Positions 5,462 through 18,378 of a stretch of 64,000 bases of DNA are shown in pieces. Where the stretch lies: positions 62,001 to 126,000 of the forward strand of contig CANQQE010000002.1 of assembly GCA_947625935.1 (NCBI GenBank). Direction: 5' to 3'. Position numbers and translations under genes: made by a program. The notes beneath the pieces were generated by a model. That model was not told the DNA's origin. It made no database searches and worked only from the letters and a program-made list of their open reading frames with translations. This DNA comes from an uncultured Muribaculaceae bacterium (GTDB lineage Bacteria; Bacteroidota; Bacteroidia; Bacteroidales; Muribaculaceae). The first letter of the stretch is position 1, and each line of letters starts with the position of its first letter.

Positions 5462-7102
5462 ATGAAGAAATTTCACGCATTCATATTGCCGACACTGCTG
5501 TTGTTGCTCTCGCTTGCCGCCTCGTGCGCCGGCGACCGGCGCACCGACGCCGCCCTGGCCCGCGCCGAGGCCGCGATGCAGTCGGCTCCCGACTCAGCAC
5601 TCGCGATTCTCGACTCCATCGACCCTGCAGCCATCAACGGGCGGCGACGAGCCCTCCACGCCCTGCTCCTCTCCCAGGCTTTGGACAAGAACTACATCGA
5701 CACCGACAACGACTCGCTGATCAACATAGCCGTCGACTACTATGCCGACACCGACGATGACCCGCGCCGGCTGATGCTCGCGCGCTATTACCGCGGGCGC
5801 ATACTTCTCAACGCCGGACGATACGCCGAAGCCCTCGTCTCGCTGCTTGAGGCCGAAACCATAGGCAAACGGATCGGCGACGACTACAATCTCGGACTAA
5901 TCTACCGCAACATATCACGAATCTATTTGGACATACTGAACGGACCCGAAAGCATCAGATACGCCAAACTCTCACTGCGGCACTTCACGAAAACCGGCCT
6001 CACAAACTACATACAATACGCCTACTATGAACTGGGGTTAGCGTATAATGATGCGGAATTTTATGACAGCAGTATTGTGATCTGTGACTCGGTCGTCAAA
6101 TTTGCAAGAGCCAGCGGTGAGAAACCGTTATTGCACACTTCGCTTGGAGTTCTTGCCATGTCAAATGTCGCAACAGGCAACCACAGGAAAGCGATACAAA
6201 TCTACAACGAATTGGAATCATTGCAGATCAAACCTCTAACCACAGATGAGTTATATTGCCGCGGGAGATGTTACCGGGCTGTTAACGACATCAATGGATT
6301 GATTAGATGCCGGAATCTGATACAAGAGTGTGATTCATCAGACAAATCCTTAGGATATGAAACAAGCGAGTCGTTGGGCGATTACAAGAAGGCTCTTGAA
6401 TATCTCTCATGGGACATAGAGAATCAAAACAAGTCAATCGAAAAAATAAACTCCCAGACAGTGACACAAACGTGCAATCTATATTACGAAGACATACAAG
6501 AATCTAAAAACAACCAGATAAAAGTCCAGCGGAGATACACGCTGGTCGTTATCTCTTTTTCTATCATAACGATAGCTCTGTTAGTATATGCGCTTATCGT
6601 AACACTTAAAAACAAGCGACAAAAAATCGAGAGTCTGATGAATGTCGCCGCCGACTTGGAATACAACCTGTCACGGCAAGCATCAGAAGGGACGGAAATG
6701 GCTGATTTTATGCGTCAAAGGCTAAACGCACTAAACGAACTGAGTCAGGCATACTATGAATCAGCGGCTATACAAAAAGGAAGCCTGCTTCATAAGAAGC
6801 TCAAGGAGCAAATTGAATCAATCAGAAACGATTCAGGGACTATATCACAATTCGAAAAATTAGCCGACTCCACAAACGGCAACATCATTTCAGACTTCAA
6901 TAATGCGTTTGATGACATGGCAGTACAATACAAACGAGTGTTTCTATATGTTGTCATTGGATTTTCTGATCAAACCATATCCGTGCTATTGGATGAACGC
7001 ATTACCAATGTCTATAATCGCAAGTCAAGAATAAAAGCGAAAATAAAGGAATCGGATTATCCCGAAAAAGATCGTTTTCTCAAAGTTTTAACAAAAAAAT
7101 AG
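5462..7102 (+). CDS. TPR lipoprotein with membrane segment and degenerate C-terminal HTH (probable transmembrane sensor-regulator)
   Basis: This 546-aa protein begins with a lipoprotein-type signal (LSLAASC, Cys22). Helical tetratricopeptide-like repeats follow through about residue 340, with one transmembrane helix at about 358-382 and a short coiled coil after it. The C-terminal segment (about 490-546) resembles the degenerate LuxR-like helix-turn-helix ends of Bacteroidetes sensor proteins (FLYVVIGFSDQTISVLL, then NRKSRIKAKIKES). The plan suggests envelope sensing coupled to a cytoplasmic output, but direct DNA binding is unproven. It lies upstream of the DUF3244 gene and the RiPP pair and may regulate them. 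The first third is G+C-rich like its neighbours, while the rest becomes clearly A+T-rich, hinting at a mosaic gene. Confidence 0.7.
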   Translation: MKKFHAFILPTLLLLLSLAASCAGDRRTDAALARAEAAMQSAPDSALAILDSIDPAAINGRRRALHALLLSQALDKNYIDTDNDSLINIAVDYYADTDDDPRRLMLARYYRGRILLNAGRYAEALVSLLEAETIGKRIGDDYNLGLIYRNISRIYLDILNGPESIRYAKLSLRHFTKTGLTNYIQYAYYELGLAYNDAEFYDSSIVICDSVVKFARASGEKPLLHTSLGVLAMSNVATGNHRKAIQIYNELESLQIKPLTTDELYCRGRCYRAVNDINGLIRCRNLIQECDSSDKSLGYETSESLGDYKKALEYLSWDIENQNKSIEKINSQTVTQTCNLYYEDIQESKNNQIKVQRRYTLVVISFSIITIALLVYALIVTLKNKRQKIESLMNVAADLEYNLSRQASEGTEMADFMRQRLNALNELSQAYYESAAIQKGSLLHKKLKEQIESIRNDSGTISQFEKLADSTNGNIISDFNNAFDDMAVQYKRVFLYVVIGFSDQTISVLLDERITNVYNRKSRIKAKIKESDYPEKDRFLKVLTKK

Positions 7103-7320
7103 CTCAAATTAATCAGTTCAGCACATATATCCCTATAAATCAGAAACTTAACAGATACAACGAAATAACAGGCTCATATACAGTAAATTACAGAACAGAT
7201 TCATTATTGATAGATTATTGTCATTTTGCATCGATATAAGTTACTATATATCAATCACATACAAACACATTGATAGAAATGTTTTTTATCTGATATTGAT
7301 GGTTCTGTCTTCATAATCAG

Positions 7321-7328
7321 TAATTTTG
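7321..7328 (+). promoter_or_regulatory. -7 promoter element for the DUF3244-like/RiPP genes
   Basis: TAATTTTG matches TAnnTTTG and ends 24 bp before the ATG at 7353. The surrounding 250-bp gap (7103-7352) is strongly A+T-rich and holds no other clear signal. No equally good box is seen between 7734 and 7838, so this promoter may also serve the peptide precursor. Confidence 0.55.
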
Positions 7329-7352
7329 TATTGAATTTTAACCGCAAATATC

Positions 7353-7733
7353 ATGAATAAAGTAATAAAATTATTAACTGTGTTTATATCCGTATGGGCT
7401 ATAAGCCTGTCGTTGCCCGCAACCGCACAAACAACAAACAGAGATCAAAAAATAAAGCTAAGATATTCAGGTAGCACAAGCCCATCGGCTCCGCGAGTAC
7501 CGAGCGACTACGAACTGTCATGCCTGTATGAGGACGGTGAGCTTTACTTCTCGTTTCCCGAAGGGGCAATGTCGATGAGCGTCGTGGTGCGCAACGAGGA
7601 AAGCGGTGCAACCAACCAAGCCATCATCTACTCCGAAACCCAAGGAGTGGCACTCCCCGGCACCGCGAACACCTACTTCATCGATTGCTGTACCGATCAT
7701 GGAATAGCTTTTACCGGCTACCTGACTTTCTAA
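7353..7733 (+). CDS. Small secreted DUF3244-like protein
   Basis: This 126-aa protein has a signal peptide (MNKVIKLLTVFISVWAISLS, cleavage likely after PATAQ). A single beta-rich domain follows, with the pattern of DUF3244: YELSCLYEDGELYFSF, then VVVRNEESGAT and a final TYFIDCCTDHGIAFTGYLTF. DUF3244 proteins are short secreted or surface proteins of Bacteroidales with no established function. Two adjacent Cys near the C-terminus are visible. The gene is 250 bp after the TPR sensor and 105 bp before the RiPP precursor. Such proteins often sit next to TPR/HTH sensor genes, so it could be a sensed or sensor-associated partner, but this is inference. Confidence 0.65.
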   Translation: MNKVIKLLTVFISVWAISLSLPATAQTTNRDQKIKLRYSGSTSPSAPRVPSDYELSCLYEDGELYFSFPEGAMSMSVVVRNEESGATNQAIIYSETQGVALPGTANTYFIDCCTDHGIAFTGYLTF

Positions 7734-7838
7734 GAAACGTTTAGACTCGAGAAAAATCATTATATAATGTCATTGGGCATCACAATGTAAAACACGATGC
7801 AAAACTAAATTCAATTATTAACAAAAAATTTCATTAGT

Positions 7839-8075
7839 ATGGAAGACGACAAATTTAGCCCACTGACTGTGGATGAATCAGGTAAACTCCATGGCGGTTT
7901 CTCTGCAAAAAGTATCAAACCTGTTGAATGGAATGGGAACAAGAACATCAACTGTTTGGGAAATGGAGAAGGTGATACCAATACAAATTGTACAGGTAGG
8001 TGCAAAGCTTGTGGTGAGATTGAACCCCCAATAAACCCTAAGCCCAATCCTGAGGATGTCCCAATAGAAGGATAG
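7839..8075 (+). CDS. Candidate radical-SAM-modified RiPP precursor peptide
   Basis: This 78-aa peptide has a short acidic leader (MEDDKFSPLTVDESGKLHGG) ending in Gly19-Gly20. The core is rich in Asn, Gly and Cys, with C39, C51, C55 and C58 (the last three as CTGRCKAC). An acidic, Pro-rich tail follows (EPPINPKPNPEDVP). No signal peptide or membrane helix is present. The KL-x-GGF pattern resembles Bacteroidales natural-product precursors of the GG-leader type, but I cannot assign a named family. The radical SAM/SPASM gene follows after 83 bp, which is the main evidence. A perfect hairpin lies in that gap. Cys in the core would suit thioether (sactipeptide-type) crosslinks. Base composition is A+T-rich compared with the flanking barrels. 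Confidence 0.7.
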   Translation: MEDDKFSPLTVDESGKLHGGFSAKSIKPVEWNGNKNINCLGNGEGDTNTNCTGRCKACGEIEPPINPKPNPEDVPIEG

Positions 8076-8086
8076 TCAAACCAAGC

Positions 8087-8122
8087 GTGCTGCGATTGCT
8101 GAGATCACAGCAATCGCAGCAC
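8087..8122 (+). terminator. Perfect 15-bp hairpin between precursor and maturase (attenuator-like)
   Basis: GTGCTGCGATTGCTG (8087-8101) is the exact reverse complement of CAGCAATCGCAGCAC (8108-8122), around a 6-nt loop. The T-tract is weak (TCTT), so partial termination or 3-prime-end protection of the precursor mRNA fits better than complete termination. Such a stem would let the peptide be made in excess over its maturase. Confidence 0.75.
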
Positions 8123-8158
8123 TCTTAATTCCATCATATATTCTATTTTCAATGTGTC

Positions 8159-9460
8159 ATGAAATTTAGCAAATATATTCAATTTATTAAGCATGAAGAC
8201 AATGATAAAGAAGTCTTGTTTGCATATCGACAAAATGAAATTATAGATTTAGACAAGCGACTTGCGAGTTTAATAAGGACCAACATTGATACTCCTGACA
8301 ACATTAGAGATATCCATCCTGAGTTATACAATTGTCTTGCTGAGCGCCAAATAATCATCCCTGACGAATGCGACGAAACGATTTTATGCTTAAATGAAAT
8401 AAATCAGAAGCTGTCTTCCGACCAAACGGTAAGATTAACCATAAATCCAACTATGGATTGCAATTTACGCTGTTGGTATTGCTATGAAAATCATATGACA
8501 GGGAGTGTGATGGATAAATCTATGATTAGACAGGTATGTGATTACATAAGAAAAGCTGCGGAATCCCCCACTATGGAGAATCTAATACTATCTTTTTTCG
8601 GAGGCGAGCCTTTATTAAGATATAACAGCGTTGTTAAACCTATAATCATATCAGCTTGTGATTCCTGCAAACGAAATGGGAAAGCCATATTAGTCAGTTT
8701 CACATCAAATGGCGTATGCCTAACAAGACATATTGTAGATGATTTAACAGAAACAGTGAATAATGTAAGCGTACAAATTGCTTTCGACGGAGGAAAATCC
8801 ACCCATAACAATGTTAAGAAATTTGCAAATGGCGACGGAACATACGACCTTGTTGTATCAAATTTGAAATATGCTATTAATAAAGGCATATTCACAACCA
8901 TTCGATGCAATTATACCGCAACTAATTTAATTTCTTTTGCAGAATTAGTAGAAGATTTTATAGATTTGCACGAAAATAAGAATTTAAAATTTTCATTTCA
9001 TCGTGTTTGGCAAGAAAAAGACTCGGAATTGCTAACTAAACATATGTCGGAATTTAAAACAATAGCGAAACAATTTCGATTTTCATCTAACCTAAGCAGT
9101 CATGCAGTTGTCAATCTGTCGCCATGTTATGCCGATTATTTAAACAGTGTGGTTATCAATTACAATGGAGATATCTTTAGGTGTACTGCACGTGATTTCA
9201 AAAAGAGCAACAGGATAGGTATATTGAAAAACGGAACTATAGTATTTGATGACGCTCAGTCATCTGAATCATCCCCCAGACGATTCTATAAAGAATGCGG
9301 AGAATGTAAGATGCTACCGATATGCAACATCTGCTATCAACAGCGTAAAGATAGCCCTGGAATATGTCCTCAGGGAGAAATTTCTAATGAAGATATTTCT
9401 GCAAACATAGATAAATACTACAGCGATTTGACAAACACCTCAAACCAATCATATTCATGA
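8159..9460 (+). CDS. Radical SAM/SPASM peptide maturase
   Basis: This 433-aa enzyme has an N-terminal region (about 1-85) that may bind the leader. The radical SAM cluster motif CNLRCWYC has Cys101, Cys105 and Cys108, and FFGGEP (146-151) binds S-adenosylmethionine. The C-terminal SPASM domain is complete: C323-x13-G-x4-C342, then C380-x2-C383-x5-C389-x2-C392 and a final C403, enough for two auxiliary [4Fe-4S] clusters. Such enzymes install thioether, C-C or related bonds in ribosomal peptides, so the upstream 78-aa peptide is the likely substrate. The stop overlaps the ATG of the outer-membrane barrel gene by 4 bp (ATGA), implying translational coupling. The gene is clearly A+T-richer than the following barrels, a sign of separate origin. 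The exact modification is unknown. Confidence 0.88.
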   Translation: MKFSKYIQFIKHEDNDKEVLFAYRQNEIIDLDKRLASLIRTNIDTPDNIRDIHPELYNCLAERQIIIPDECDETILCLNEINQKLSSDQTVRLTINPTMDCNLRCWYCYENHMTGSVMDKSMIRQVCDYIRKAAESPTMENLILSFFGGEPLLRYNSVVKPIIISACDSCKRNGKAILVSFTSNGVCLTRHIVDDLTETVNNVSVQIAFDGGKSTHNNVKKFANGDGTYDLVVSNLKYAINKGIFTTIRCNYTATNLISFAELVEDFIDLHENKNLKFSFHRVWQEKDSELLTKHMSEFKTIAKQFRFSSNLSSHAVVNLSPCYADYLNSVVINYNGDIFRCTARDFKKSNRIGILKNGTIVFDDAQSSESSPRRFYKECGECKMLPICNICYQQRKDSPGICPQGEISNEDISANIDKYYSDLTNTSNQSYS

Positions 9461-13932: not shown

Positions 13933-13938
13933 AAATCA

Positions 13939-14016
13939 AAACTGATTATCAGCAAGTTAAGCTCAAAAACAGGTCAAAATAGGGCTAACTGCCTGATAAT
14001 CAGTTTATATTTTTTG
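13939..14016 (+). terminator. Long hairpin terminator closing the maturase/barrel transcript
   Basis: AAACTGATTATCAG (13939-13952) and CTGATAATCAGTTT (13993-14006) form a perfect 14-bp stem. Part of the 40-nt interior can pair further (GTTA with TAAC). A T-run lies at 14011-14016. The stem is longer than a typical terminator and could also have another origin, such as a small inverted-repeat element. Confidence 0.7.
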
Positions 14017-14140
14017 GATCGAAAATAGTGATAGATTTTTTAAGATTTAACATTTACAACCTGCTAATAATCAATATGTTACAAACGAGCCGCAACAAAT
14101 TATCTTTGCCCCGTTATTTGCACACGGCCAACGATTCCTG

Positions 14141-14148
14141 TAACTTTG
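14141..14148 (+). promoter_or_regulatory. -7 promoter element for the plug-only/barrel operon
   Basis: TAACTTTG matches TAnnTTTG and ends 26 bp before the ATG at 14175. A second match, TATCTTTG, lies at 14101-14108. Both lie downstream of an in-frame ATG at 14028, which argues that translation begins at 14175. Confidence 0.6.
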
Positions 14149-14174
14149 CCCTGAAACGACTCAATCGTTCAGAT

Positions 14175-14615
14175 ATGAATAAAACGATATTAGCAATCAT
14201 CGCGGCCACAATATGGGGCGTACCGACGACCTATTGTGCAACCTACGGCTCCAGCGCAGAGAATCAACCCGCACCCACCGAACGCAACTTTTGCGACTCT
14301 ATAGCCAATGATTACCGGCAAGGGTGCGAAATTGACACGACACAAAGTGCCTATGAGCGAATCAAATCGACATTAGCGGAATGGGGAGGCTATAGCGAGG
14401 AGAAAATGGAAAAATCGGTGGTGATAATCGATGGCGAACGGCTCGACATTGCCGGCGTCGAGCTGATAGCGACTGTAAAAAGCATTCCGGCACATGAAAT
14501 AGCTCGCTATGTCCTTAACCCATCCGCACCGAAGGAGTTCAAGTCGAAAGGCTACCTTATAATTTTAGAAACTAAAAAGAGATGCAAACATACCGATTAC
14601 CCAACCTACCGATAG
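14175..14615 (+). CDS. Secreted stand-alone TonB plug-like protein
   Basis: The chosen start gives 146 residues with a clean signal peptide (MNKTILAIIAATIWGVPTTY). The frame is open back to 14028, but that part contains the promoter boxes. The mature part ends in a segment built like the end of a SusC/TonB plug domain: VVIIDGERL (82-90), then AHEIARYVLN (107-116) and FKSKGYLIILETKK (122-135). These correspond to the plug landmarks of a DG turn, an I-x-x-I-x-V-L segment, and a Gly followed by an I-x-I-x-T-K strand. No barrel follows. The last 34 bp overlap the start of the next receptor gene in another frame, implying coupling. It could be a detached plug, a decoy or a periplasmic signalling partner for a barrel. 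A remnant of a larger receptor is an alternative, but the intact frame and promoter argue for a functional gene. Confidence 0.6.
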   Translation: MNKTILAIIAATIWGVPTTYCATYGSSAENQPAPTERNFCDSIANDYRQGCEIDTTQSAYERIKSTLAEWGGYSEEKMEKSVVIIDGERLDIAGVELIATVKSIPAHEIARYVLNPSAPKEFKSKGYLIILETKKRCKHTDYPTYR

Positions 14616-16903
14616 CTCTTATCACGTTATTATGCGCCGCGATGACCACCGCAATCCAAGCCTCGCCTATCGCGGGGCGCGTGATTGACGCAAACGACGG
14701 ACATCCGCTTGAATATGTCAACGTAGCTGCACTCAGAGCCGACTCGACGCTGATTGACGGCTGCATGACCGACTCGGCGGGGCGGTTTGGCCTAAACGCC
14801 CCGGGGGCAGCCATACTGCGGCTGACGCTTGTGGGATATGTACAGAAATCGAATACTGTCACAGGCCATGACAGTATGGGCGATATCGCTCTGGCACCAC
14901 AGGTAGCGGAGCTATCGGAAGTAACAGTGTCGGCGCCTCAGGCAATGACCAGGCTTAAAGGGAACTCGATGATAACCACCGTGGCCAACACCGAACTGTC
15001 GAAACTCGGCGGAGCCATCGACGTGCTCGACTGGATTCCGATGGTGTCGGTAAGCAACGGAAACGTCAAGGTGTTCGGAAAAGGTACACCCCTTATCTAC
15101 ATTAACGGACGGACGATGAGAAACAAAGCCGAATTAGAGCAACTGAGATCAACCGACATTGCGAGCGTCGAGGTCATCACAAACCCGGGAGCCAAGTACC
15201 CGTCGACAGTGAAATCGGTAGTCAGAATACGCACCAAGAAAATCAAAGGCGACGGGTTAGGACTCTACGCGCGGTCGGCCAACACATTCGCCCGCTACTA
15301 CAGCAACACCGAACAGCTCGACGTCAAGTATCGCCACAACAGTCTGGAAATTTTCGGTCTGGGATATTTCAGCACTCAAAAGACGCGCTCGCACTACGAC
15401 TACGACCAGCGCGACTACGAAAACGGCGATGAGATACGGCTCGACAAGAGGGAAATAACCAAAAGCCGTCCATGGATTGGAAAATTCGGGGCGAACTACG
15501 ATTTCAACGCCAAGCACTCGGCGGGCGCATACTACCAGTATATGTGGGTAAAGGGCGACACGGAATCAGCGTCAAAGTCATCATCCACCGGGCCGGCGGC
15601 GGAGAGCTGTGAGGTTGTCGACACCGACAGCAAAGGCAGCTCGCTATCAGCACCCATCCACAACGTGAACGCCTACTATAACGGATCGGTAGGCCGGTTG
15701 GGAATCGATTTCAACATAGAATATTACGGGATGACCACCAATAAGGATTCGCGCGACATAGACGGCGATCCCGCCGGCACAGTGAACACCGTGACATCAA
15801 GGTCTCACACCGAGGGTTCGCTGACCGCCGAGAAGCTCACGTTCAGCTACGATTTCGCCTCATCGCACATAGAGGCGGGACAGGAATACAGCCGGTCAAG
15901 TTACAAGAACCGCTATGACAACGTGGAGGGACTGATAGCCGACGAGCGCAGCCTGACAAAAGAGGACAACAACTCGGTGTTCGCCGAGTACGCCCTGACC
16001 CTTGGCCGGTGGCAGATAACCGCCGGCATCAGATACGAGCATATCGCGCACAGCTACACATCGACCGCCGGGTCTGACCACCGAGTCTACAACGACCTGC
16101 TGCCGTCGGCATCTGTATCGACATCATTCGGGGATGTCGGCGTATCTCTGAGCTACCGCCACACCACAAGCCACCCCGGATTCGGCCTGCTCGACGGCAA
16201 CATAACTTATCTCAACCGCTGGCAGTATCAAAGTGGGAACCCCGGCCTACGACCCACAAAAACACATTCAGTGGAGCTTACGGCAATGTGGAAAGACAGC
16301 TATCTGCAGGCGGGGTTCTCAAGCATCAGTAATCCTGTTTACAACACCACCGTACCCTACGCCGAGGACGGCAATGTCACACTCATCACATGGGACAACT
16401 TCCCGACGGCTAAAAGATGGGACGTGGTAGCCGGAACAAAAATAAAAGCAGGTGTCTGGACCGGGAATATAACAGCGGGATTGTCGGCGCAAAGAGTCAC
16501 GACATTATTCCGCAACAAGCCAAAATCGCTAAACAACCCCATGGGAGTGTTCAAGGTCACCAACTCGTTCAGGCTACCCCGACGACTATGGTTGTTTCTA
16601 AGACTCGGCTACGAAACCGCCGGCAACTCCGACAACCGTTTCAACGGAGATAAAACCGAGCTTTATTTCAGCGCTTATAAAGAGTTCAACAAAGGAATGT
16701 GGGGGTTGCGGCTGTCAGTCTACGACATTCTCGACCGGCAGAGCAGCGACACGCGCCTCTACTGCAACAACATCTACAGCACCACGCTGACAAAGACCGA
16801 CAGCCGATGCGCCGTGGTCACAGTAACCTATAATCTCAACACCTCGCGGAGCCGATACAAAGGCACAGGAGCTGGCAACTCAGCAAAAAGCCGATTGCAA
16901 TGA
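14582..16903 (+). CDS. TonB-receptor-like outer-membrane barrel with carboxypeptidase-like N-domain
   Basis: This 773-aa protein has a signal peptide (about 1-27, cleavage near IQASP) and a carboxypeptidase regulatory-like domain at about 29-105 (IAGRVIDANDGHPLEYVNVA). A plug-like domain at about 108-220 (PLIYINGRTMRNKAELEQL, then VVRIRTKKIKGDG) precedes a barrel of about 540 residues ending in a Ser/Lys-rich tail. It is of the outer-membrane beta-barrel type common in Bacteroidetes peptide and signalling loci. Its start lies inside the end of the plug-only gene. A 131-aa membrane protein gene follows after 13 bp. No SusD homologue is present, so classical glycan uptake is unlikely. Confidence 0.82.
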   Translation: MQTYRLPNLPIALITLLCAAMTTAIQASPIAGRVIDANDGHPLEYVNVAALRADSTLIDGCMTDSAGRFGLNAPGAAILRLTLVGYVQKSNTVTGHDSMGDIALAPQVAELSEVTVSAPQAMTRLKGNSMITTVANTELSKLGGAIDVLDWIPMVSVSNGNVKVFGKGTPLIYINGRTMRNKAELEQLRSTDIASVEVITNPGAKYPSTVKSVVRIRTKKIKGDGLGLYARSANTFARYYSNTEQLDVKYRHNSLEIFGLGYFSTQKTRSHYDYDQRDYENGDEIRLDKREITKSRPWIGKFGANYDFNAKHSAGAYYQYMWVKGDTESASKSSSTGPAAESCEVVDTDSKGSSLSAPIHNVNAYYNGSVGRLGIDFNIEYYGMTTNKDSRDIDGDPAGTVNTVTSRSHTEGSLTAEKLTFSYDFASSHIEAGQEYSRSSYKNRYDNVEGLIADERSLTKEDNNSVFAEYALTLGRWQITAGIRYEHIAHSYTSTAGSDHRVYNDLLPSASVSTSFGDVGVSLSYRHTTSHPGFGLLDGNITYLNRWQYQSGNPGLRPTKTHSVELTAMWKDSYLQAGFSSISNPVYNTTVPYAEDGNVTLITWDNFPTAKRWDVVAGTKIKAGVWTGNITAGLSAQRVTTLFRNKPKSLNNPMGVFKVTNSFRLPRRLWLFLRLGYETAGNSDNRFNGDKTELYFSAYKEFNKGMWGLRLSVYDILDRQSSDTRLYCNNIYSTTLTKTDSRCAVVTVTYNLNTSRSRYKGTGAGNSAKSRLQ

Positions 16904-16916
16904 CCGCCGGGGCTTA

Positions 16917-17312
16917 ATGACTAATGGTAAAAACAACATGATGGAATCGAAACACAATTTTCAATATTGCTGCGCGTTGAGCGTTATTTTGGCAATCGCA
17001 AGCGCAGCCTACTTCCTGAACGGCTGTTTGGGAGAATACTCCGGGAAAGTTTCCACTTACTGCCTGTCGGTTTCGCTGATAATCGCTTTGTTGGCGGTGT
17101 TTCCCCGCGGCGGGGATAAAAAGACGCCGACAAAAAATAACGTCAAGAAATCATTGTGGCTCATCATATTGGCCATCGGCACCCCGATTTTCTCTATTTT
17201 AACCGATCAGATACGTCAAGGAGATTATCTCTTCATTACAATCTTAGCTCTCGCAAACACCGTCAATTCAGTGATGATTGCGATAACCGCTAAACGACTC
17301 CGCATACCCTAA
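16917..17312 (+). CDS. Small inner-membrane protein, function unknown
   Basis: This 131-aa protein has about four hydrophobic segments (near residues 17-35, 45-61, 79-97 and 104-125). A Lys-rich loop (GGDKKTPTKNNVKKS) lies in the middle. I recognise no family. It starts 13 bp after the preceding barrel gene, so it is probably in the plug/barrel transcript. An internal ATG at codon 8 or 9 is an equally good start. A role as an accessory or immunity-like membrane protein of the peptide cluster is conceivable but only suggested by position. Confidence 0.6.
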   Translation: MTNGKNNMMESKHNFQYCCALSVILAIASAAYFLNGCLGEYSGKVSTYCLSVSLIIALLAVFPRGGDKKTPTKNNVKKSLWLIILAIGTPIFSILTDQIRQGDYLFITILALANTVNSVMIAITAKRLRIP

Positions 17313-17474
17313 AATTTGATTCGACCGACATAGTAGGTCTGAGCCACAAATCAAAATCTAATAAACAACATTTTCGCATACTCTTATGACAGTATGTTAA
17401 TTGCCACATGGTTACAAAGTCGAAAAAACAAATTTATTTTGAGTGAAAATTTGACTCTTACATTGCGGTTGCGG

Positions 17475-18103: not shown

Positions 18104-18107
18104 AAAG

Positions 18108-18316
18108 AGGGCTATAGCGCATATAGGCGGCTTGCCCGTGGGGAAGCCCTACCGGGCTGACTCGCAGCGATATATGAGTTATCGCGTGACGAGTCAGACA
18201 TTTGACATGGGGATGGAGGGCTATAGCGCATATAGGCGGCTTACCCGTGGGCAAGCCCTACCGGGCTGACTCGCAGCGATATATGAGTTATCGCGTGACG
18301 AGTCAGAGATTTGACA
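18108..18316 (+). repeat. Two tandem copies of a 109-bp intergenic repeat
   Basis: Copies start at 18108 and 18217 and differ at only a few positions. Each begins AGGGCTATAGCGCATATAGG. Each contains a hairpin from CTGACTCG to CGAGTCAG with an inner GCGATA/TATCGC stem. A partial copy lies at 5347-5370. The repeat falls between the pseudogene and the nitroreductase gene and codes for nothing evident. It resembles dispersed palindromic intergenic repeats rather than a CRISPR, since there are no spacers. The rest of the 275-bp gap (to 18378) shows no other signal. Confidence 0.85.
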
Positions 18317-18378
18317 GGGGGTTCTGCAACATTTTCATGCTATTTTTTTTGGTGGAGGGATGGTGGTGTGGAGGACAG

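Follow-up and report, generated by a model that had tools for sequence, protein, structure and literature searches.

A conserved twin-NxNC precursor family with its radical SAM/SPASM maturase clade and a coupled outer-membrane barrel in Muribaculaceae

Introduction

Does a 78-residue open reading frame beside a radical SAM gene in an uncultured Muribaculaceae bacterium encode a RiPP precursor, and which neighbouring genes might serve its product? The two genes lie in a 64,000-nt stretch of contig CANQQE010000002.1 (hereafter the window). An earlier note, made from the sequence of the window, had read them as a precursor with a radical SAM/SPASM maturase. That pairing holds; the note had missed the hairpin between the two genes, the coupled barrel, a paralogous cluster and an exporter in trans, all described below.

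Bacteroidales radical SAM RiPP clusters with GG-leader precursors and PCAT exporters have been described in a survey that includes nine Muribaculaceae genomes (PMC10352776). In the portions of the survey available to us, its clusters share with the window a GG leader and, in some cases, a radical SAM enzyme as the sole modifying enzyme. They carry a PCAT, an outer-membrane protein without an MFP in BGC6-9, and a TPR protein in BGC2 and BGC9. The window differs in lacking a cis-encoded PCAT and, apparently, in its twin-NxNC core.

Results

Features of the window locus (window coordinates)
Feature	Position	Strand	Evidence or remark
TPR protein, lipobox-like start, one hydrophobic segment near residue 365	5462..7102	+	candidate membrane regulator
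Block repeated in the paralogous cluster on contig C3	5495..7786	+	97.8% DNA identity
Small protein, signal-like N-terminus, 126 aa	7353..7733	+	near-copy in the paralogous cluster
Putative RiPP precursor	7839..8075	+	78 aa, ATG start; homologues, core motif, leave-one-out E 1.9e-16
Precursor leader, residues 1-20	7839..7898	+	closes with G19-G20
15-bp perfect hairpin	8087..8122	+	folding of 8070-8165; position kept in the clade
Predicted radical SAM/SPASM peptide maturase	8159..9460	+	433 aa; Pfam Radical_SAM, TIGR04085
C-x3-C-x2-C radical SAM cluster motif, residues 101-108	8459..8482	+	invariant in the 14-row and 8-row alignments
SPASM cysteines C323 to C403	9125..9367	+	clade-specific C-x2-C-x5-C-x2-C
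TonB-dependent-receptor-like outer-membrane barrel, 694 aa	9457..11541	+	OMP_b-brl_3 8.7e-47
Second OMP_b-brl_3 barrel, 766 aa	11632..13932	+	ORF, OMP_b-brl_3 match
Third OMP_b-brl_3 barrel, 773 aa; cassette membership uncertain	14582..16903	+	OMP_b-brl_3 match

Precursor family. The open reading frame and its leader ending in Gly-Gly are present as first described, and the cysteines are C39, C51, C55 and C58 with no others. Maturase homologues were found at 1e-20 in 14 of 100 relatives' genomes and, with a three-sequence profile, at 1e-40 in 69 of 398 same-family genomes (the window's own genome is included in both counts). Stretches around the matches in these relatives yielded 101 maturases for examination. 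Precursors of the window type adjoin seven related maturases, always upstream, in six other genomes of the family. With the window itself this gives eight loci (window, L021, L022, L069, L070, L071, L072 and L073) from 7 of the 398 genomes. The original claim hung on whether orthologous maturases have a homologous peptide upstream: a Gly-Gly, Cys-containing peptide lies 56-157 bp upstream of all eight maturases of this clade. As the note had hoped for homologues, Gly-Gly and the cysteines are conserved in 8/8 precursors, all of which retain the core N-x(1-2)-N-C-x(5-19)-N-x-N-C-x(1-3)-C-x2-C. This pattern, which was drawn from the eight precursors themselves after inspection, occurs in candidate peptides of none of the 93 other maturases.

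Leave-one-out profiles recovered the omitted precursor in 8/8 cases, at E-values from 2.6e-22 to 7e-8 among 1192 ORFs, with next-best ORFs at 0.44 or above. For the window, the profile of the other seven found the precursor at 1.9e-16 and the next ORF of the 64 kb at 1.3. Comparison of the eight loci confirms the ORF as a conserved putative RiPP precursor, with a conserved leader and a variable core beside a modifying enzyme at every one. The acidic, Pro-rich tail reported earlier is present in the window precursor but does not extend to the family: tails differ among the eight, and we rejected the tail as a family mark. In a set of 55 cores dissimilar to one another, Asn is over-represented at positions -5 (79/293), -3 (91/324) and +2 (66/277) relative to Cys, levels reached in 0/1000 shuffles each.

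Searches of NCBIfam and Pfam gave no name for the precursors. The TIGR04149 family, the radical SAM-modified GG peptides of Bacteroidales, resembles them in its GG leader and radical SAM partner, and the earlier note had suggested its HMM as a check. The model did not match the window precursor; the best score, in one of ten precursors scanned, was 9.4 against a cut-off of 25 bits, the scan taking in seven of the eight twin-NxNC precursors (the window and six others; that of L073 was left out). Membership in TIGR04149 was rejected on these scores. No clade member was found in any of three same-genus genomes searched, one of which is 68% complete.

Maturase clade. Judged by its cluster motif and by SPASM cysteines in a variant spacing, the 433-aa protein is a predicted radical SAM/SPASM peptide maturase. 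It carries C101-NLR-C105-WY-C108, as had been claimed, and matches Pfam Radical_SAM at 8.3e-15; its SPASM region scores 33.8 with the TIGR04085 HMM, another suggested check, above the 27-bit cut-off. The SPASM cysteines read C323-x13-G337-x4-C342, C380-x2-C383-x5-C389-x2-C392 and C403. Their order is that given before, but the spacing, taken then as near-canonical, had to be corrected: the last gap is x2, against x3 in 87 of the 93 maturases outside the clade. One of these 93 reaches x2 only through a CC doublet, and five have no match. The corresponding one-residue deletion is found in all eight clade maturases.

On a tree covering 73 of the 101 maturases, the eight twin-NxNC maturases form one clade (UFboot/SH-aLRT 100/99). 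Precursor type, mapped on the tree as a label, changes once, and none of 500 label shuffles gave so low a number. In an order-wide sample, 13 of 393 genomes (own included) matched the maturase at 1e-70; the 14 loci read from this sample all have x3 SPASM spacing and no twin-NxNC precursor. An early single-sequence scan of named genomes gave one locus, from a thin sample of such genomes.

Among NCBIfam maturase families (geopeptide, CefB, PapB, Clo7bot, SCIFF, CXXX-repeat and others), the best-scoring 25 of 63 families were all below the curated cut-off. The strongest was the geopeptide maturase model TIGR04280, at 137 bits over residues 1-389 against a cut-off of 400. PapB, the radical SAM/SPASM maturase of PapA in freyrasin-type ranthipeptides, scored 115 bits against 340; PapA has Cys-X3-Asp/Glu motifs (PMC9413430, in the part available to us), whereas the window core has no repeats of that motif. 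The closest PDB structure is 5wgg (2.5e-33 by profile, 5.2e-15 by single sequence), named CteB (PMC10352776). CteB, the ranthipeptide maturase of CteA, is likewise a radical SAM and SPASM protein, but the single-sequence match spans residues 92-288 only and the SPASM spacing differs; the comparison covered the maturase sequence. The whole maturase profile also aligns from residue 3 to 8vpo, a structure listed among those used for checking RRE models (PMC12710340). The N-terminal profile alone gave chance-level hits when searched against the PDB for an RRE (best 0.23). An AlphaFold model of the maturase built from two sequences has a mean pLDDT of 49, and below 50 at the N-terminus.

Hairpin. 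The gap between precursor and maturase folds strongly: the region 8070-8165 reaches -35 kcal/mol (z -6.6, 0/200 shuffles). The T-tail of the hairpin is weak. All eight clade gaps contain an uninterrupted stem of 11-17 bp in differing sequence, and seven of the eight have z of -3 or lower. In the wider family, a stem of at least 9 bp with z of -3 or lower occurs in 42 of 53 precursor-maturase gaps and in 25 of 130 control gaps (p 3e-14). We infer that the hairpin acts as an attenuator, a leaky terminator or a stabiliser of the mRNA 3' end.

Outer-membrane barrel. The ATG of the 694-aa barrel overlaps the maturase stop codon by 4 bp. A barrel gene of the same blast family stands at +1 of the maturase in 8/8 clade loci and at 80 of 100 loci overall, a count that covers 100 of the 101 maturases (L095 was left out), in which stretches are cut by contig ends and two maturases of one locus were in some cases counted apart. 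Homology extends over both plug and barrel: a profile of 13 barrels matches Cir (1.7e-6) and FepA (6.7e-4), as well as the N-terminal domains 6ytc and 9hfj. Barrels of 688-694 aa without an N-terminal extension accompany the five maturases that group most closely (window, L021, L069, L070 and L071; support 99/96), and the barrels of L072 and L073 have 766-767 aa.

Distances between maturases correlate with those between their barrels (rho 0.216, 72 loci, 0/500 permutations). They do not correlate with exporter distances (rho 0.003, 53 loci, 222/500 permutations) and show no clear correlation with TPR distances (rho 0.102, only 26 loci, 62/500 permutations). From these comparisons the barrel appears to have co-diverged with the maturase, the two evolving together, although part of the correlation may be due to adjacency.

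After the cassette, just past a 225-bp block shared with the paralogous cluster, a short secreted-type protein (14028-14615) precedes the third barrel (14582-16903). In the paralogous cluster this block stands before the precursor. The two genes may represent a degenerate or different cassette.

Paralogous cluster and exporter. The genome contains one other TIGR04085 match, on contig C3. It belongs to a second cluster (L025) of a TPR protein, 126-aa and 124-aa proteins, a Cys-rich GG peptide, a maturase, a barrel, a 95-aa protein and a C39 exporter. Its maturase is 34% identical to that of the window (in the pairwise identity table, a value of 100% marks a single gene reached from two maturases at one locus), and its precursor is also different. 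Three blocks are common to both clusters: 2295 bp at 97.8% identity (window 5495-7786), ending 52 bp before the precursor ATG; 225 bp at 95.1% (13933-14157), starting right after the stop of the second barrel; and 428 bp at 95.8% (16923-17350). The order of the blocks differs and the payloads are unrelated. Shared flanks around different payloads therefore suggest an exchange of payloads between flanks of the two clusters. We considered the TPR protein as a payload-specific sensor and disfavour this role, as it is 99% identical in amino acids between the clusters while the maturases are at 34%; a recent copying event would give the same likeness. A relative of the 126-aa protein in L070 has weak kinship to DUF3244, seen for that relative only. 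A 106-bp tandem repeat, with two copies at 96%, lies at 18107-18321 of the window.

The window cluster has no C39 exporter in cis. The sole C39 match detected in the genome, which is 99.99% complete, lies inside the paralogous cluster (C3:88531-88890). A C39 exporter in cis is found in three of the eight clade clusters (L021, L069 and L072), with L022 and L070 cut by contig ends. Six of the seven clade genomes have a C39 match, and the seventh, G051, is 86% complete. In genome G142, the clusters L071 and L073 have no exporter within 8.9-9.2 kb downstream and the C39 exporters lie on other contigs, so supply of the exporter in trans recurs.

Wider family. Among maturases with at least 600 bp upstream, 60 of 93 have a Cys-rich, GG-like peptide in front of them, whereas other ORFs at these loci have one in 38 of 483 cases (Fisher 1.3e-31). 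The rule required at least four Cys in 45 residues, a GG-like motif and an end within 350 bp; a looser rule gave 67 of 101 maturases and 46 of 487 control ORFs. By the fixed rule 33 of the 93 have no such peptide, and 20 of 101 have no candidate even by a wide, looser search, so not every maturase of the wider family is paired with a precursor in this way. The likely GG precursor of one sister subclade is downstream of the maturase.

Several arrangements were seen beside related maturases. A GG peptide lies 3' of the sister maturases L076, L077, L080, L081, L082 and L085. A protein of about 770-800 aa stands before the cluster in L076, L077, L080, L082 and L085, and also in L075, where the peptide is upstream; in L080 this protein is a GT2 glycosyltransferase that ends in a LanC-like domain. 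In L093, L095, L102 and L128, a secreted-type protein of about 120-130 aa ends some 12-13 bp before the maturase, with no convincing Cys-rich peptide. RiPP cores made up largely of repeats, such as NN-x3-C, INN-x3-C or NC-x-C, occur in L121, L114, L126, L127, L132, L133, L106 and L024.

Discussion

Our computations give a conserved precursor family paired one-to-one with a maturase clade, a hairpin, a coupled and co-diverging barrel, and no exporter in cis. From these we consider it probable that the cassette makes a ranthipeptide-like RiPP whose leader is cut and whose core is exported by C39 in trans, with the barrel as outer-membrane partner. The 78-aa precursor would be translated, and the hairpin past its stop codon would keep precursor mRNA above maturase mRNA, a role proposed because of its position and conservation. 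The maturase would recognise the leader through L-x2-D/E-x-G-x-L-x-GG-F and then modify the core; the likeliest modification is a set of thioethers formed from the four conserved cysteines, as with ranthipeptide maturases. Crosslinking of the core cysteines, which the earlier note also favoured, is argued by analogy with CteB as the nearest solved relative and from the conservation of the cysteines; conservation of four cysteines would also suit disulfides or metal binding. The leader would be removed behind Gly-Gly, and the core would leave through the C39-peptidase ABC exporter of the C3 cluster, since no other C39 domain was detected in a nearly complete genome. The TonB-receptor-like barrel, translated with the maturase, would serve as a peptide-specific outer-membrane partner: an exit gate, a re-uptake receptor or a means of self-protection. 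For a TonB-dependent barrel in export there is a precedent in Myxococcus, where secretion of PopC requires the TonB-dependent transporter Oar (PMC6434023, in the part available to us); that likeness is one of function, and the cargo is a protease and not a RiPP.

The same cysteines could instead stay uncrosslinked, held in disulfides or binding metal, while the enzyme performs another radical reaction (epimerisation, a C-C bond or an Asn-directed change) and the barrel takes the peptide back up like a metallophore. A C-x2-C with two further conserved cysteines and a TonB-receptor-like barrel coupled to the maturase would suit such a product, and the Asn enrichment near Cys could mark Asn, not Cys, as the target. 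Yet CteB, the nearest maturase of known structure, forms thioethers, no metal-linked gene was noticed among the best 25 recurring neighbour families, and literature on iron regulation through TPR or DUF3244 genes led to unrelated genes only; we regard this reading as unlikely, if the most serious of the rivals. That precursor and maturase are the inactive or decaying remains of a cassette, exporting nothing since the window copy lost its exporter, seems distinctly improbable. The missing cis exporter, the low G+C (35% in 8001-9000) and the absence of the pair from the three same-genus genomes searched, one of them 68% complete, would fit decay, but neither ORF is disrupted and every motif residue is present, and L071 and L073 likewise manage without a downstream exporter in a genome with C39 elsewhere. 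A single Cys-rich, GG-like ORF could be chance, because 7.9% of control ORFs (38/483) have one upstream by the same rule. Recovery of every omitted precursor at 7e-8 or better, against 0.44 or above for the next-best ORFs, and a core motif that tracks the maturase clade leave a chance ORF beside an enzyme with some other substrate hardly credible, and we rejected it on the leave-one-out recovery.

The ranthipeptide-like reading can be taken further, to a chemistry and a transport route that would both be undescribed. Asn three and five residues before Cys would then be the thioether acceptor or director, and the peptide would leave or re-enter through its own co-evolved TonB-type barrel. One shared C39 exporter would serve several unrelated payload cassettes in trans, with no MFP/TolC, and modules of precursor, maturase and barrel would be swapped between near-identical regulator flanks. 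As a whole this extension is speculative and we hold it doubtful.

Clusters of Bacteroidales with a radical SAM enzyme, a GG leader and a C39 exporter are already known; an outer-membrane protein without an MFP occurs in some of them, and a TPR protein in some. New here are a precursor family of twin-NxNC type together with the SPASM signature of its maturases, a hairpin conserved between the two genes, the co-divergence of the barrel and the exporter in trans, for which open-licence papers gave no report; nor did they give an Asn-Cys ranthipeptide in Bacteroides. In cluster make-up, only PMC10352776 and its editorial come close among these papers.

With its fixed core motif and the enzyme signature that goes with it, the precursor-maturase family is open to testing, and the chemistry of the crosslinks can therefore be mapped on eight natural pairs. 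Members of the wider family are common, occurring in 69 of 398 genomes, and their cores are diverse, which makes the family a plausible origin of peptides secreted by gut Bacteroidales. Co-divergence of the maturase with a TonB-type barrel, but with no such link to the exporter, yields a definite and testable proposal as to which component recognises the product. It also bears on a question raised in the survey (PMC10352776), in the portions available to us, namely export by such clusters without an MFP.
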